Origin: an uncultured Caldilineaceae bacterium
GTDB taxonomy: Bacteria > Chloroflexota > Anaerolineae > Caldilineales > Caldilineaceae
Reading direction: 5' to 3'
NCBI GenBank assembly: GCA_958295915.1
Contig: OY282381.1
Span: forward strand, 1,944,722 to 2,008,721
DNA length: 64,000 nt
Shown: positions 3,857 through 21,032 of the stretch, piece after piece
Layout of the letters: each line of letters begins with the position of its first letter
Position numbering within the stretch: the stretch's first letter is position 1
Translations under genes and position numbers: made by a program
The notes under the pieces: generated by a model
What the model was told of the DNA's origin: nothing
What the model saw: the letters and a program-made list of their open reading frames with translations, nothing else
The model's database searches: none

Positions 3857-4972
3857 ATGAGCCAGATATCGCCGTTGACGGAAGCAACCCTGGACAAAAC
3901 AGAGAACTCCGCAGGCGCGCATCGGCTTGGGCGCTGGGGGATTGCGGCGCTTTCCATTCTGGCCCTTGCCGCGATTCTCGTCAGTAGCGTCAACACACCC
4001 CAGGCCCGATTTTTCGTTGCCGAACGCTTCCAGACATTCGTCACAGTGTTCCTTGGCCTCTTCATCGAAGCCGCCCCCTTTCTCTTGGCCGGTTCGATCG
4101 TGTCGGGCATTATCGCCGTCTATGTGAATCAGGAAATGCTGGAACGCTTCATACCCGGTCAGCCGCTGCTCGCAGCCCTGGCCGGCGCGGGATTGGGGTT
4201 CGTTTTCCCTGTCTGCGAGTGTGGAGTCGTACCGGTAACCCGCCGGCTCTATGGCAAGGGGTTGCCTCTGCCGGTGGGCATCGCCTTTCTGCTGGCGGCG
4301 CCGGTGATCAATCCGGTTGTGATCTTCAGTACCTTTGCCGCCTTCGGCTGGGGGCCCGTTCTGTGGGGACGGGTCGGTTTCAGTATTCTGGTCGCATTTG
4401 CGGTGGGCCTGATCTTCCATCTTGCCCGGCCAGAAGAGGTGTTGAATGCGCCTCTGCTCGAGAGAGGCGCGGAACTGCGGCCGCAGACCCCAGCCGCCCG
4501 CAGCAGTGTTTTGCGGGCAACCACAAGGGTTGCCCCTACGGAGCGCGACCATGTCCATCCCAATCCGCGCATCTGGCAGGCTCTCGCTATGGCCGGCGAT
4601 GATTTTCTGGACATGGGGCGCTACCTGATCGCCGGTTCGATCCTGGCCGCAGCCATGCAGACCCTCGTTCCCCAATCTACTTTGCTTGCCATCGGACAGG
4701 GGCCGATCATTTCCGTCTTTGTGTTGATGGCCCTGGGCTTCATCCTATCGGTCTGCTCTACAGTGGATGCGTTTATCGCCCTGGCCTTCAGCAACGCCTT
4801 TACAACCGGCTCGCTGTTTGGATTCCTCGTCTTCGGCCCAATGGTGGATGTCAAAAGCTCGCTGCTGTTTTTGGGGATCTTTCGACGGCGCACAGTCTTC
4901 TATCTGATCTTGCTGCCCTTGGCCCTTGTGGCTGTTATTGCCGTCTTCTGGAATGTGCAGGTGGGAGCATGA
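3857..4972 (+). CDS. YraQ/DUF318-family permease (UPF0718), carrying two repeat-derived insertions
   Basis: A 371-residue membrane protein of the two-repeat permease family (DUF318, also called YcgR or YraQ). Each half carries the family signature: [13 protein letters not shown] at residues 118-130 and [14 protein letters not shown] near 300. About eight to ten hydrophobic segments are visible. Members often sit next to TIGR03943 proteins and are suspected metal or arsenic-compound exporters; the substrate is not established. The central cytoplasmic loop (about 190-240) is unusual: it contains a family B peptide ([11 protein letters not shown], 197-207) and a family E peptide ([13 protein letters not shown], 219-231), both translated repeats. 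The ORF stays open through both. The stop at 4972 is six bases before the earliest start of the next gene, so the two are an operon. Confidence 0.88.
4445..4477 (+). repeat. Family B palindromic repeat (33 nt) inside permease gene
   Basis: AATGCGCCTCTGCTCGAGAG followed by AGGCGCGGAACTG. GCGCCTCT...AGAGGCGC is an eight-base inverted repeat. It is read in frame as [11 protein letters not shown] in the permease central loop. Confidence 0.9.
4513..4539 (+). repeat. Family E hairpin inside permease gene
   Basis: GGGCAACC-ACAA-GGGTTGCCC-CTAC hairpin; the same element is intergenic at 16670. Here it is translated as part of the permease central loop (RATTRVAPT). Confidence 0.8.
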
Positions 4973-16748: not shown

Positions 16749-16770
16749 GTGCGCCTACGGTGGCGCGTGC
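16749..16770 (-). repeat. Degenerate family A repeat forming the 3' end of a gene
   Basis: GTGCGCCTACGGTGGCGCGT is a diverged A core. On the minus strand it encodes the last residues (HAPP) and leads straight into the stop codon of the glycosidase-like protein. Confidence 0.6.
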
Positions 16771-18125
16771 ACGCTGAGGTACTGGTGTAGCACCCTCTCC
16801 ACATGGCCGCCAATCTCATACGTTTCCCAGCCAGGGCTGGCCGCCAAGGCGAAGATGCAGCCGCCGATCACATATGCATCCTGTTGCATCGCCAGATCGT
16901 ACCAAACCAACTGTTCCACGTATGTGCCCGGCCCCCAGGAACCATAGCCGTGCTGTGCCCAGTACTGTTGAAAATTCTGCCATCCCAGAGCGTTTTGCGG
17001 CCCCGGTCTCTCAGCGATAAGCCCATCTACGCCCAATTCAGTCATGACCAGCGGAATCGCTAGGTTGGCCGGCTTCAAAATCTGATTGTAGACCTGACGG
17101 TAGCGTAATGTCAGCCAACCAGTGTCATGCGGCCCGACTCCGGGGTAGCGCCCCTGGCCATCCCGGGTGCTCAGATAGTAGATGGTCGGGGCAGAATACT
17201 CGTGCAGACCCAACCAGCCATCGTGAGCCCGTGCTTCTGCCACAGCCGGCAAAAAATGTTCCCACATTTCCAGAGGTGGCTGGCCGGCGCCGAAGTTGCC
17301 GATGACGCTGCGGAGGCCGCCTTGGCTGAGCAGACGCGTGCGTTCTGCCTCGAACTCTGTCAAACGTTTGAACTCGTCCACATTCCCGGCCACCGGCTCG
17401 TTGAACGCTTCCCAGCCATCGAAATGGAGGCGACGCTGCGGATGGTCGGCCACGGGCCATAAACGATTGACGAAATCCCGGGCTGCCGCCTTCGCATCAA
17501 GGTTGTTCAATTGCAGCTGGGGCAGATCGATGCGCCCAATAAGCCGGACGCGCGGCGCCGTCTCTTTGATCTTGCGCGCGAAATTGGCATCCAATTCCAG
17601 CGTCTTGACGACAGCGACCCCGCCAGTGCGCAGCAGACTGAACAGTCTGGGATCATTACGGGTGACGAATAACCCCAGCTTGCTCGGTGGACCAGGCGGA
17701 AAAGGGGTGGTGGTCGGCGTGGGTGTTGGTGTCGGCGTTAGCGTTGGCGACGGTGTCGGCGTTGGCGGGAGCGGTGTGTTGGTCGGGGTATACGTAGCTG
17801 TCACCTTCGGCGGTGTCGGCGTCAATCTGGGTTGGCGGAGCTGCAAGCCGCGCATTCTGACCCAGGGCAGATACTCTCTGTATGCCCGGGTCGGGGTAGA
17901 CGTAGACAAATTCGTAACAGATGCGCTCCTGGTTCGGCAAGCGCCAATTAGCATTCCGATGCCGGCAAATGCGCCGCCCAGAAAGCGACGTCGAGACCAG
18001 AAAACTCGCGGCTCGCGAGAGTCAGGCCGATTCTGTTTGCCTGTATCTTCAGTATACTCAAAATTCGGATCGGAACTGTTTCGACCGTCCGCGCGTGGAG
18101 AAGGGCGTTTTGCTGTCATAGACAT
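16755..18125 (-). CDS. Exported glycoside-hydrolase-like lipoprotein with Tat/lipobox start
   Basis: The N-terminus contains [20 protein letters not shown]: a twin-arginine-type signal followed by a lipobox ending in Cys 63, so the protein is probably exported folded and lipid-anchored. A linker of (TP)n repeats (about 100-143) leads to a TIM-barrel-like domain with the glycosidase-type motifs WEAFNEP (acid/base Glu candidate) and VMTELGVDG (nucleophile Glu candidate), the geometry of clan GH-A enzymes. No specific GH family can be assigned from sequence reading alone. The C-terminal residues are supplied by a degenerate family A repeat. Later in the window (51767) a second protein shows a comparable barrel. 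Confidence 0.72.
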
Positions 18126-18240
18126 ACTATATCATCGATTTGGCAGCATCTCCAAGTACAGAGCGGCAGTATCTGCAAGTTATGCTCGGATTTGCCCATC
18201 GGCGGGACATTCGCTATACTGCCTGCAGCGGTCAATTGAT

Positions 18241-18273
18241 CCGCGCCTCTGCTCGAAAGAGGCGCATTGCAAC
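18241..18273 (+). repeat. Family B repeat upstream of SelW-like gene
   Basis: CGCGCCTCTGCTCGAAAGAG then GCGCATTGCAAC; the eight-base arms GCGCCTCT and AGAGGCGC are intact. It lies 64 bases before the start codon. A second B copy sits directly after the gene. Confidence 0.85.
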
Positions 18274-18337
18274 TTTATACGCGGTGCCGGATGCCCGCGC
18301 AAGCGGCGGACAGCCCGCCTAGCGACAGGAGAGCGCC

Positions 18338-18604
18338 ATGCAGAAGTACAACGTCAGTATTGAATATTGCGTGCAATGAAACTACACGCCCCGAGCCGTC
18401 CGTGCGGCGGCCGATCTATTGGAGAATTTTACGCCAGCAATTAAAAGCCTGAAGTTGATTCCGGCGGGCGGTGGGCTCTTTGAAGTGTTAGCCGACGATA
18501 CGCTTGTGTTCAGCAAAAAGGCTGAGGGACGCCACGCGGAGGAGGGGGAAGTGTTGAACCTCTTTGCGGATGCCATCAACATGGAGCCGGCCCCGCGTGC
18601 ATAA
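18338..18604 (+). CDS. SelT/SelW/SelH (Rdx) family protein with in-frame UGA, likely selenoprotein
   Basis: Starting at ATG 18338, which follows AGGAGAG at ideal spacing, the frame reads MQKYNVSIEYCVQ, then TGA (18377-18379), then NYTPRAVRAAADLLE and on to TAA at 18602-18604. The continuation has the Rdx hallmarks: IKSLKLIPAGGGLFEV and VFSKKAEGRHAE. Family members have a CxxC or CxxU redox motif after IEYC, and the TGA falls exactly on the second position (C-V-Q-U). Bases 18391-18410 can fold as a hairpin (CC, GA bulge, GCCG stem, loop TCCGTG, CGGC, GG) whose loop begins 19 nt after UGA, the spacing expected for a bacterial SECIS. The total is 88 residues, the normal family length. The protein is thought to act as a small thioredoxin-fold redox protein. 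SelA/SelB/SelD are not in the window, so decoding is inferred. Confidence 0.82.
18391..18410 (+). promoter_or_regulatory. Candidate bacterial SECIS hairpin
   Basis: Immediately downstream of the UGA at 18377. Stem GCCG/CGGC extended by CC/GG across a two-base bulge, six-base loop with a G. Position relative to UGA agrees with SelB-binding elements; thermodynamic folding was not calculated. Confidence 0.45.
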
Positions 18605-18610
18605 GCGTTG

Positions 18611-18643
18611 AATGCGCCTCCGCTCGAAAGAGACGCAGTAGTA
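18611..18643 (+). repeat. Family B repeat downstream of SelW-like gene
   Basis: AATGCGCCTCCGCTCGAAAG then AGACGCAGTAGTA; arms slightly degraded. It begins six bases after the SelW-like stop codon. Confidence 0.8.
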
Positions 18644-18658
18644 GTTTTCGTCGAATAT

Positions 18659-18689
18659 AGCCCGCCGCCAGGATGCTGCGGCGGGCTTT
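18659..18689. terminator. Intrinsic terminator between SelW-like and Nif3-like genes
   Basis: A perfect ten-base stem AGCCCGCCGC / GCGGCGGGCT with a nine-base loop, followed by TTT. It lies between convergent genes and can serve the plus-strand SelW-like transcript; on the minus strand no T-run follows the stem, only mixed sequence. Confidence 0.7.
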
Positions 18690-18697
18690 CGGCGCGC

Positions 18698-19450
18698 TTA
18701 TAACCCCGTCGGCAGATCAACGAACTCGAAGGTGACGCCGAAGCGCCGGGCCAGATGGTCGCCCAAGGCCTGTACGCCCACTGTTTCGGATGTATAATGG
18801 CCGCCATACAGAACATTGATGCCTGTGTTCACTGCTTCGTAGTATTGAGCGTGGCTCGTCTCCCCGGTGACATACGCATCACAGCCGAGGCTGGCCGCAG
18901 TGGCGATTTCATTGGCGCCGGCGCCGCTGAGAATGCCCACCCGACGAACTGTTGCCGGCCCTGCCGCCTGAACCAGCCGCGGCCGCCCTACGCGTTCCTC
19001 AAAGCGCGCGACCAGCTCGGCAAAGGAGATCGGCTCAGCGGTTTCTGCCAGGGCAGCCAGAGGCGTACCTTTGACGTTGGCCCACCAGTCGTTGATCGTC
19101 AGACCCAGCCGGCGCGCCAGTTCGGCGTTGTTGCCCCACTCCGCATGCGCATCTAAGGCCAGATGGGCAGCGTAGAGGTTCAGATCATTCTCGATAAATG
19201 CGCGCGCCAGCCGACCATAGCTGCCGACAAGTGGCTTCGACGCGCCCCAAAAGATACCGTGATGCACCAGCATCAGATCAGCCTCCCGTTCCAGCGCGGC
19301 GTTCACGCACGGTTGGTGGGCATCCACCAGCCCGATAATTTTATCGACCTGGGTTCGCCCTTCGATCTGAAGCCCTTGGGGGCCGTAATCAGAGATTTCG
19401 CTGATGCGCAACGTATCGTCCAAATAGCGGACCAGCAGATCCCTTTGCAT
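18698..19450 (-). CDS. Nif3-like dinuclear metal center protein
   Basis: A 250-residue member of the Nif3/YbgI (DUF34) family. Metal ligands are visible: [11 protein letters not shown] near residue 63, [15 protein letters not shown] near 95, and the C-terminal [13 protein letters not shown] with the conserved His and Glu. A second conserved segment, [11 protein letters not shown] and [14 protein letters not shown], is typical of bacterial forms. The family binds two metal ions in a hexameric ring; GTP cyclohydrolase and other activities have been proposed but the role is unsettled. A strong ribosome binding site (CAGGGAGAAG) precedes ATG 19450. It converges with the SelW-like gene. Confidence 0.92.
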
Positions 19451-19536
19451 AAGGTCTTCTCCCTGGTTTACAGGTTACACCAGTGTATTGAATCCTGATT
19501 CAGACGCCGCCGCCCAGTTGTTCGGCGGGCAGCAGT

Positions 19537-19752
19537 TTACTGACCACTGAAGTGTGGACTGCGACGCACGAATCTCTTAACACCGCGGGCGAATTTGCGC
19601 CGGGGCAAAAGCGCCCGCCGCCCGCACGTCCCGCAGAGTAGACCGATGTCCGCGCCCACCCGCACGATCTCCCACTGGGCGCCGCCGCAAGGATGAGGTT
19701 TGCGCATCTGAACCACATCGCCCGTGTAAAGTTTTTCATTGACAGCGAGCAT
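19537..19752 (-). CDS. DUF951 domain protein
   Basis: A 71-residue basic protein with the DUF951 pattern: [44 protein letters not shown] in separated blocks, including the zinc-binding C..CxxC arrangement. DUF951 proteins are small, conserved in Firmicutes and Chloroflexota, and often lie near ribosome- or chromosome-related genes; function unknown. A good GGAGAGCGGAG ribosome binding site precedes the ATG. The last residues (SPHFSGQ) come from a family C-like fragment. Confidence 0.88.
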
Positions 19753-19769
19753 CTCCGCTCTCCACTGAA

Positions 19770-21032
19770 CTAGCCACTAGCCACTGATTGCCCCTCTCTC
19801 TGCCATGCGCTACGCAGTAGGCCGCCCAATGTCAGCGCAAAACTGAGCAGATAGACCACCCAACCCAGGAACGGAATACGGCCCAGAACGACGATCAGAA
19901 GCGCGCCGATCAACAGCGCCATAAGTGGGCTGAGATCGCCGCTCAGTCGCGCGCTGATGATATCCCCCAGCCAAAAACCCGTGAGCAGCGGGCTGAGGAA
20001 CCAGATCAGGGCCAACGAAGCAAACAGAAAAACGAACATGATAATGCCGGAGAAGACGCCCCAGAATGTCCAGAAGAAGGCCACCAGCGCTATCGATACG
20101 ATGGGAATGAAGACAAACAACACCGCTGCACCCAGGCCGTACAACCCCGTCTCCAACGGTTTTGCTCGGATCGCTGCAAGCGGACGGGTCAGCGCATTCG
20201 GCGCAAAGCGGATCAGCAACCAGCCGACGATCACAACACCCACAAGTATGGCAACCGTCCGCAGGATCCACCCCAATATTGCCCCAACGATAGTTCCTGA
20301 AGTCCCCTCGTCAGTTCCTGAAGTCCTCCCGTCAGTCCCTGAAGTCCTCCCGTCCGCTACCGACTCTTCAAAGCGGATGTCGCTGGCAACGCCGGCCGGA
20401 AATTCCTGTTGTTCTGCGGTGGTATAAGACAGCGTACCGCCAATGCGTGCGGATTCGTCGATACGCAACTCCGAGACTATGATATCGGCGTTGCCACCGA
20501 TTGTGCCGGCAATATCAGCGACGCCGCCCAACATGACGGCATCGCCACCGACCTCCCCGGCGATGCGCAGCCCTGAATCGATTGAGCGAGTTCCCGTCCA
20601 GACAGGAAAGGCGATCTGCCCGCCCCCGCCCGCCAGGAACGCATCATCGCCGACAGTGCCGACGAGTTCGATGCCGGCGCCGGCCGCGCGCAGATCGTCC
20701 TGCACTGCGCCCTTGACGACGATTCCAGCGCCGACAGCCCCCAAATCCCCTTCCACAGTTCCCGTTGCGCCGATTTCGATATAGCCGCCGGCCGCTATCA
20801 GATCGCCTTTAACTGTACCGTCGATATAGATTTCTGTAGCGGCTACATACAGATCGTCTTCCACTATCTCGCCGGCAGCGAGCCGGTAGGTCTCATCGCC
20901 GGCGAATTCAGCAGCCAGGGCCGCGCCGGAAGCCGTCACAACTAAAAAGATCGTGAGCGCCACCGCCGCCAGCCATCGTTTGGATACCGTGCGCTCTTTG
21001 TCGCGCCCCACAGTGGTGTGCAAAACACCCAT
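19770..21032 (-). CDS. Bactofilin-like (polymer-forming) membrane protein
   Basis: A 420-residue exported membrane protein. After a short start region comes a signal sequence ([24 protein letters not shown]). Residues 40-215 form a right-handed beta-helix of bactofilin type ([30 protein letters not shown] style turns). A short tandem peptide (GRTSGTD repeated) links to four or five C-terminal transmembrane helices (about 250-405). The combination suggests an envelope scaffold anchored in the membrane. ATG 21032 is preceded by AAGGAGA and so is a well-supported start; residues 4-12 (LHTTVGRDK) are then a translated family A repeat inserted between start codon and signal sequence. Confidence 0.78.
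20280..20345 (-). repeat. Short tandem repeat coding GRTSGTD units
   Basis: About three units of 21 nt around TTCCTGAAGTCCTCCCGTCAG on the plus strand, translated in the minus frame as GRTSGTD-type heptads. The stretch joins the beta-helix to the membrane part of the bactofilin-like protein and can vary in length without a frameshift. Confidence 0.65.
21000..21029 (+). repeat. Family A repeat at the very start of the bactofilin-like gene
   Basis: GTCGCGCCCCACAGTGGTGT plus GCAAAACACC. The gene is on the minus strand and the repeat directly follows its ATG, between a strong ribosome binding site and the signal peptide. Confidence 0.85.

Follow-up and report, generated by a model that had tools for sequence, protein, structure and literature searches.

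The window analyzed here is a 64,000-nucleotide stretch of DNA from an uncultured Caldilineaceae bacterium, and it contains a short gene of the SelW-like (Rdx) family that is interrupted by an in-frame TGA codon (Table 1). The frame opens with an ATG and, past the TGA, stays open on the forward strand until a TAA at 18602–18604. Reading through the UGA gives a product of 88 residues that begins MQKYNVSIEYCVQUNYTPRAV, in which the UGA-encoded residue is the second of the redox pair in the CxxC/CxxU motif (C11-V-Q-U14).

Table 1. Features at and around the SelW-like gene (positions are those of the window).
Feature	Position	Strand	Basis or remark
Divergent gene	16755–18125		no Pfam match
Sigma-70-type promoter, possible, weak (TTGCCC-17-TATACT, 9/12)	18192–18220	+	pattern match only
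Ribosome binding site AGGAG	18327–18331	+	read from the sequence; 6 nt 5' of the ATG
SelW-like (Rdx family) selenoprotein gene, U14	18338–18604	+	Rdx profile, structure matches
In-frame UGA, C-V-Q-U	18377–18379	+	aligned to Cys14 of CxxC homologues; TGA conserved
Bacterial SECIS hairpin	18392–18413	+	fold (-10.4 kcal/mol), RNAalifold, covariation
GC-rich hairpin, possible weak terminator	18660–18686	+	fold; followed only by UUUC
Convergent DUF34/NIF3 gene	18698–19450		next gene

The SelW-like gene is probably transcribed alone, as a monocistronic unit, because its two neighbors are divergent and convergent to it. The initial annotation had placed a ribosome binding site before the gene and a terminator after it. 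The former was borne out, and homologues have a purine-rich, GGAG-like motif where this sequence has AGGAG. The terminator was upheld only in part, in that a strong GC-rich hairpin does lie 3' of the gene but is followed by just UUUC, and no intrinsic terminator 3' of the gene passed a pattern scan. Many Caldilineaceae loci share the order of genes across 16755–21032 (the divergent gene lacking a Pfam match, DUF34/NIF3, DUF951 and a membrane protein). This conserved neighborhood gave no clue to function, since neither flanking gene runs in the direction of the selenoprotein gene.

On both sides of the gene, at 18243–18266 and 18614–18637, lies a palindromic repeat of 24 nt, GCGCCTCTGCTCGAAAGAGGCGCA. 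Further copies in the window lie at 4448, 4981, 23871, 59584, 60456 and 62189, for a total of eight, and the genome has 324 copies at three or fewer mismatches (control, 0). The palindrome can be extended to GTTGAATGCGCCTCTGCTCGAAAGAGGCGCATTGAAC. The repeat looks like a REP-type element, and its copies around the selenoprotein gene were probably inserted there by chance.

Profile and structure comparisons support that the frame continues through the UGA at 18377 into Rdx sequence, as had been proposed from the nucleotide sequence. The readthrough product matched Pfam Rdx (PF10262) with an E-value of 1.7e-19 and 70.3 bits (cut-off 22.6) and also passed the NCBIfam model TIGR02174 (CXXU_selWTH; 54 bits, cut-off 34.2, E-value 1.6e-14), so that it shares the family which that model describes. 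It shares the family of NF041051 (SelTWH_Campy) as well but, at 87.2 bits against a cut-off of 88, fell 0.8 bit short of this Campylobacter-centered curated model. A genome-wide Rdx search returned this gene as the sole Rdx of the genome, with one TGA inside the match. In a phmmer search against solved structures, 2fa8 was matched at 3.7e-12, and residue 14, encoded by the UGA, fell opposite the second Cys of the CxxC motif in 2fa8, 3dex and 2obk, which places the UGA at the redox position that the initial annotation had assigned to it. Downstream of the TGA, the whole frame is conserved at the protein level. Overall, these data confirm the finding of a SelW-like gene with an in-frame UGA.

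A hairpin expected of a bacterial SECIS was also found close behind the UGA, although it spans 13–34 nt past the codon and not the 11–31 nt first reported. Its core stem consists of six base pairs (18395–18400 with 18406–18411), supplemented by two outer pairs, and its loop is CGUGC (18401–18405) with GU at 18402–18403. Published limits for bSECIS elements are a loop of 3–9 nt with a G in the first two positions, often followed by G or U, an upper stem of 4–16 bp, a distance of 16–37 nt from the UGA and a minimum free energy of at most -7.5 kcal/mol (PMC13188914). The hairpin lies within all of these limits, with a loop of 5 nt that has its G at position 2 and begins 21 nt past the UGA, a stem of 6 bp and an energy, when folded alone, of -10.4 kcal/mol.

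That the hairpin stands above chance follows from its conservation at a fixed position and not from the folding energy of the single sequence. For this sequence alone, the energy was unremarkable relative to dinucleotide shuffles (z -0.46) and borderline relative to synonymous recodings (P 0.07). Nearly all Caldilineaceae homologues have a loop at 21–22 nt with G(U/G), and RNAalifold, given 21 sequences, predicted the SECIS hairpin unprompted and no other structure. Over 22 representatives, 112 pairs at the six pair positions were kept, versus 91.2 ± 3.3 in synonymous recodings (1000 recodings, maximum 103), and the summed hairpin energy was -224, versus -142 ± 11. The pair formed by alignment columns 21 and 33 changes from C-G to U-A in five sequences with zero mismatches; both columns are fourfold-degenerate third codon positions, so that the compensation is synonymous. 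Pair 24–30, likewise third to third codon position, is C-G in 21/21 sequences, and sliding the partner by 1–3 columns lowers pairing from 95% to 21–75%. As the sequences are related, the numbers of this covariation test overstate their independence. The synonymous recodings, the compensatory pair and the RNAalifold prediction all indicate that the structure is conserved beyond coding constraint. The exact helix is not formed in three more distant homologues (L046, L048 and L049). Among three Cys-type loci (L052, L053 and L067), one has no bSECIS-like hairpin and two have unrelated hairpins, but these are distant Rdx paralogues and a poor test of SECIS absence.

The host genome (5.06 Mb in one contig, 99% complete) encodes the entire machinery for Sec decoding, a search for which had been suggested in the initial annotation. 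A tRNA-Sec with the anticodon TCA (UCA) scored 67.6 bits, above the Rfam cut-off, and selA (557.7 bits), selB and selD (329 bits) were each above their cut-offs, with selB corresponding to a 643-residue ORF that has EF-Tu and SelB winged-helix domains. The selD gene (L021, G000:C1:2537211-2538203) was itself observed to have an in-frame TGA, within ACAGUASKLPPG, which is the known Sec/Cys site of SelD. The genome therefore has at least two probable selenoprotein genes, the SelW-like gene and selD.

Homologous loci were drawn from species-representative genomes. There were 28 such loci, 27 of which cover the motif, and TGA was present at the motif codon in all 27. The TGA-bearing loci reach down to 44% identity and belong to Chloroflexota, Actinomycetota and Poribacteria. 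Within the genus the TGA form was found in 17/17 genomes, and within the order an Rdx gene was found in 42/46 genomes and the TGA form in 41/46. The one genome of the order survey with only a Cys form (G240, L067) has no selB above the cut-off. Distant CxxC Rdx paralogues occur in some Caldilineaceae (L052 in G221, L053 in G237 and L067 in G240), sometimes together with the Sec form.

Across a sample of the phylum, TGA-type Rdx genes were present in 75 of 201 genomes, and the TGA form tracks the presence of selB. The latter was above its cut-off in 73 of these 75 genomes and absent in two, versus 85 with and 41 without among the other 126 (Fisher P = 8e-8); it was absent from 5/21 genomes that have only stop-free Rdx genes, versus 2/75 with TGA forms (P = 0.005), the P values being indicative only, as the genomes are related. 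The TGA-bearing genomes in which selB was not above the cut-off (G044, G197 and G222) are 83–88% complete.

Taken together, the gene is almost certainly a monocistronic SelW-like (Rdx) selenoprotein gene with its UGA read as Sec, an incorporation that we infer from the features described above. Each of the computational checks suggested in the initial annotation favored its interpretation. Other readings of the UGA were considered. A TGA lies one base away from both TGT and TGC, and a former CxxC Rdx gene could have acquired it by mutation, as a pseudogene, or by sequencing error. This is extremely unlikely, however, as the identical TGA occurs in every motif-covering locus and in every genome of the genus, the frame 3' of it is conserved as protein, and a single broken gene would not retain the hairpin through compensatory synonymous changes. 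Conservation of the TGA, the frame and the hairpin refutes this reading, and an error of base calling is excluded because the TGA is kept in many independently assembled genomes.

A reading in which a tRNA other than tRNA-Sec decodes the UGA as Cys or Trp, through recoding of UGA or a suppressor tRNA, would fit the Cys at the aligned residue of CxxC homologues, but it is very unlikely. This genome otherwise uses UGA as an ordinary stop, since TGA ends 3 of the 11 window genes checked and also terminates the selD frame. The only tRNA found with a UCA anticodon is the tRNA-Sec, a full Rfam match (the ARAGORN scan was confined to the tRNA-Sec locus), and the link between the TGA form and selB is likewise at odds with such decoding. 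Sec decoding and termination generally compete at UGA-Sec codons, and it is conceivable that the UGA mainly stops translation, that a 13-residue peptide or a stall is regulatory and that the full protein is made only with selenium. We consider this as improbable as a broken gene, given that the entire downstream frame is conserved at the protein level and that no gene under the control of such an upstream ORF follows, the next gene being convergent. It would, moreover, add to the selenoprotein reading and not replace it.

According to the selenoprotein reading, translation would start at 18338 and, at the UGA, SelB carrying Sec-tRNA(UCA) would bind the downstream SECIS hairpin with its GU loop. 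Sec would be inserted in place of termination, and translation would run on to the TAA. An AlphaFold model built from 22 TGA homologues (pLDDT 91.2, pTM 0.81) predicts a thioredoxin-like fold of the SelW type, with the CxxU pair located where strand 1 ends and helix 1 starts. When Foldseek was run with this model, the best 22 matches were all Rdx proteins. The CxxC Rdx structures 2fa8, 3dex, 2obk, 2p0g, 2oka and 2ojl have the same fold (TM-scores 0.78–0.85, with 0.85 for 2fa8) and their CxxC aligns to the CxxU, but they have Cys where the product would have Sec and are 24–38% identical to it. Mouse SelW (2npb), also among the Foldseek matches, shares the fold (TM-score 0.64) and the CxxU motif, although sequence identity is only 25%. 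In eukaryotes the SECIS sits in the 3' UTR, unlike that of the SelW-like gene here. Judging from motif and predicted fold, the product is most likely a small thiol/selenol redox protein, in which Cys11 and Sec14 would form a selenenylsulfide.

The novelty of the gene is low, because bacterial SelW-like CxxU selenoproteins have been known since about 2005. SelW-like CxxU proteins were among the most abundant selenoprotein families in the Sargasso Sea, with 48 genes (PMC1088965), and in the Global Ocean Sampling data, with 427 Sec versus 56 Cys forms (PMC2398784), and a 2026 review lists them as PF10262 with CxxU (PMC13188914). The gene described here has the same Rdx domain, Sec at the second position of the CxxU motif and a SECIS just past the UGA; it differs only in host lineage (Caldilineaceae, Chloroflexota), and no difference in kind was seen. 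In the literature consulted that treats Chloroflexi, selenoproteins and SelW together, no Caldilineaceae SelW-like selenoprotein was seen. Standard annotation would tend to overlook or truncate a gene of this sort, as the initial annotation expected, and the frame given here corrects it. In Epsilonproteobacteria, SelW genes are reported to have been completely missed in annotation (PMC4607533).

A 2006 survey noted few Cys homologues of SelW-like proteins in Sec-using organisms and suggested that Sec was the original form (PMC1794560). The TGA-only picture obtained here agrees with that suggestion. We tentatively propose, as a possibility that falls somewhat short of an even chance, that in Caldilineaceae and much of Chloroflexota Sec is ancestral and practically irreplaceable in this SelW-like subfamily, such that loss of selB leads to loss of the gene or leaves a distant Cys-type Rdx, and the UGA is not converted to Cys in place. 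The same survey listed three selenoproteins in three families for Chloroflexi (PMC1794560). To this phylum, for which few had been listed, the gene contributes a well-supported selenoprotein family. The large set of TGA-only homologues within one family also offers material for studying why SelW-like proteins keep Sec.
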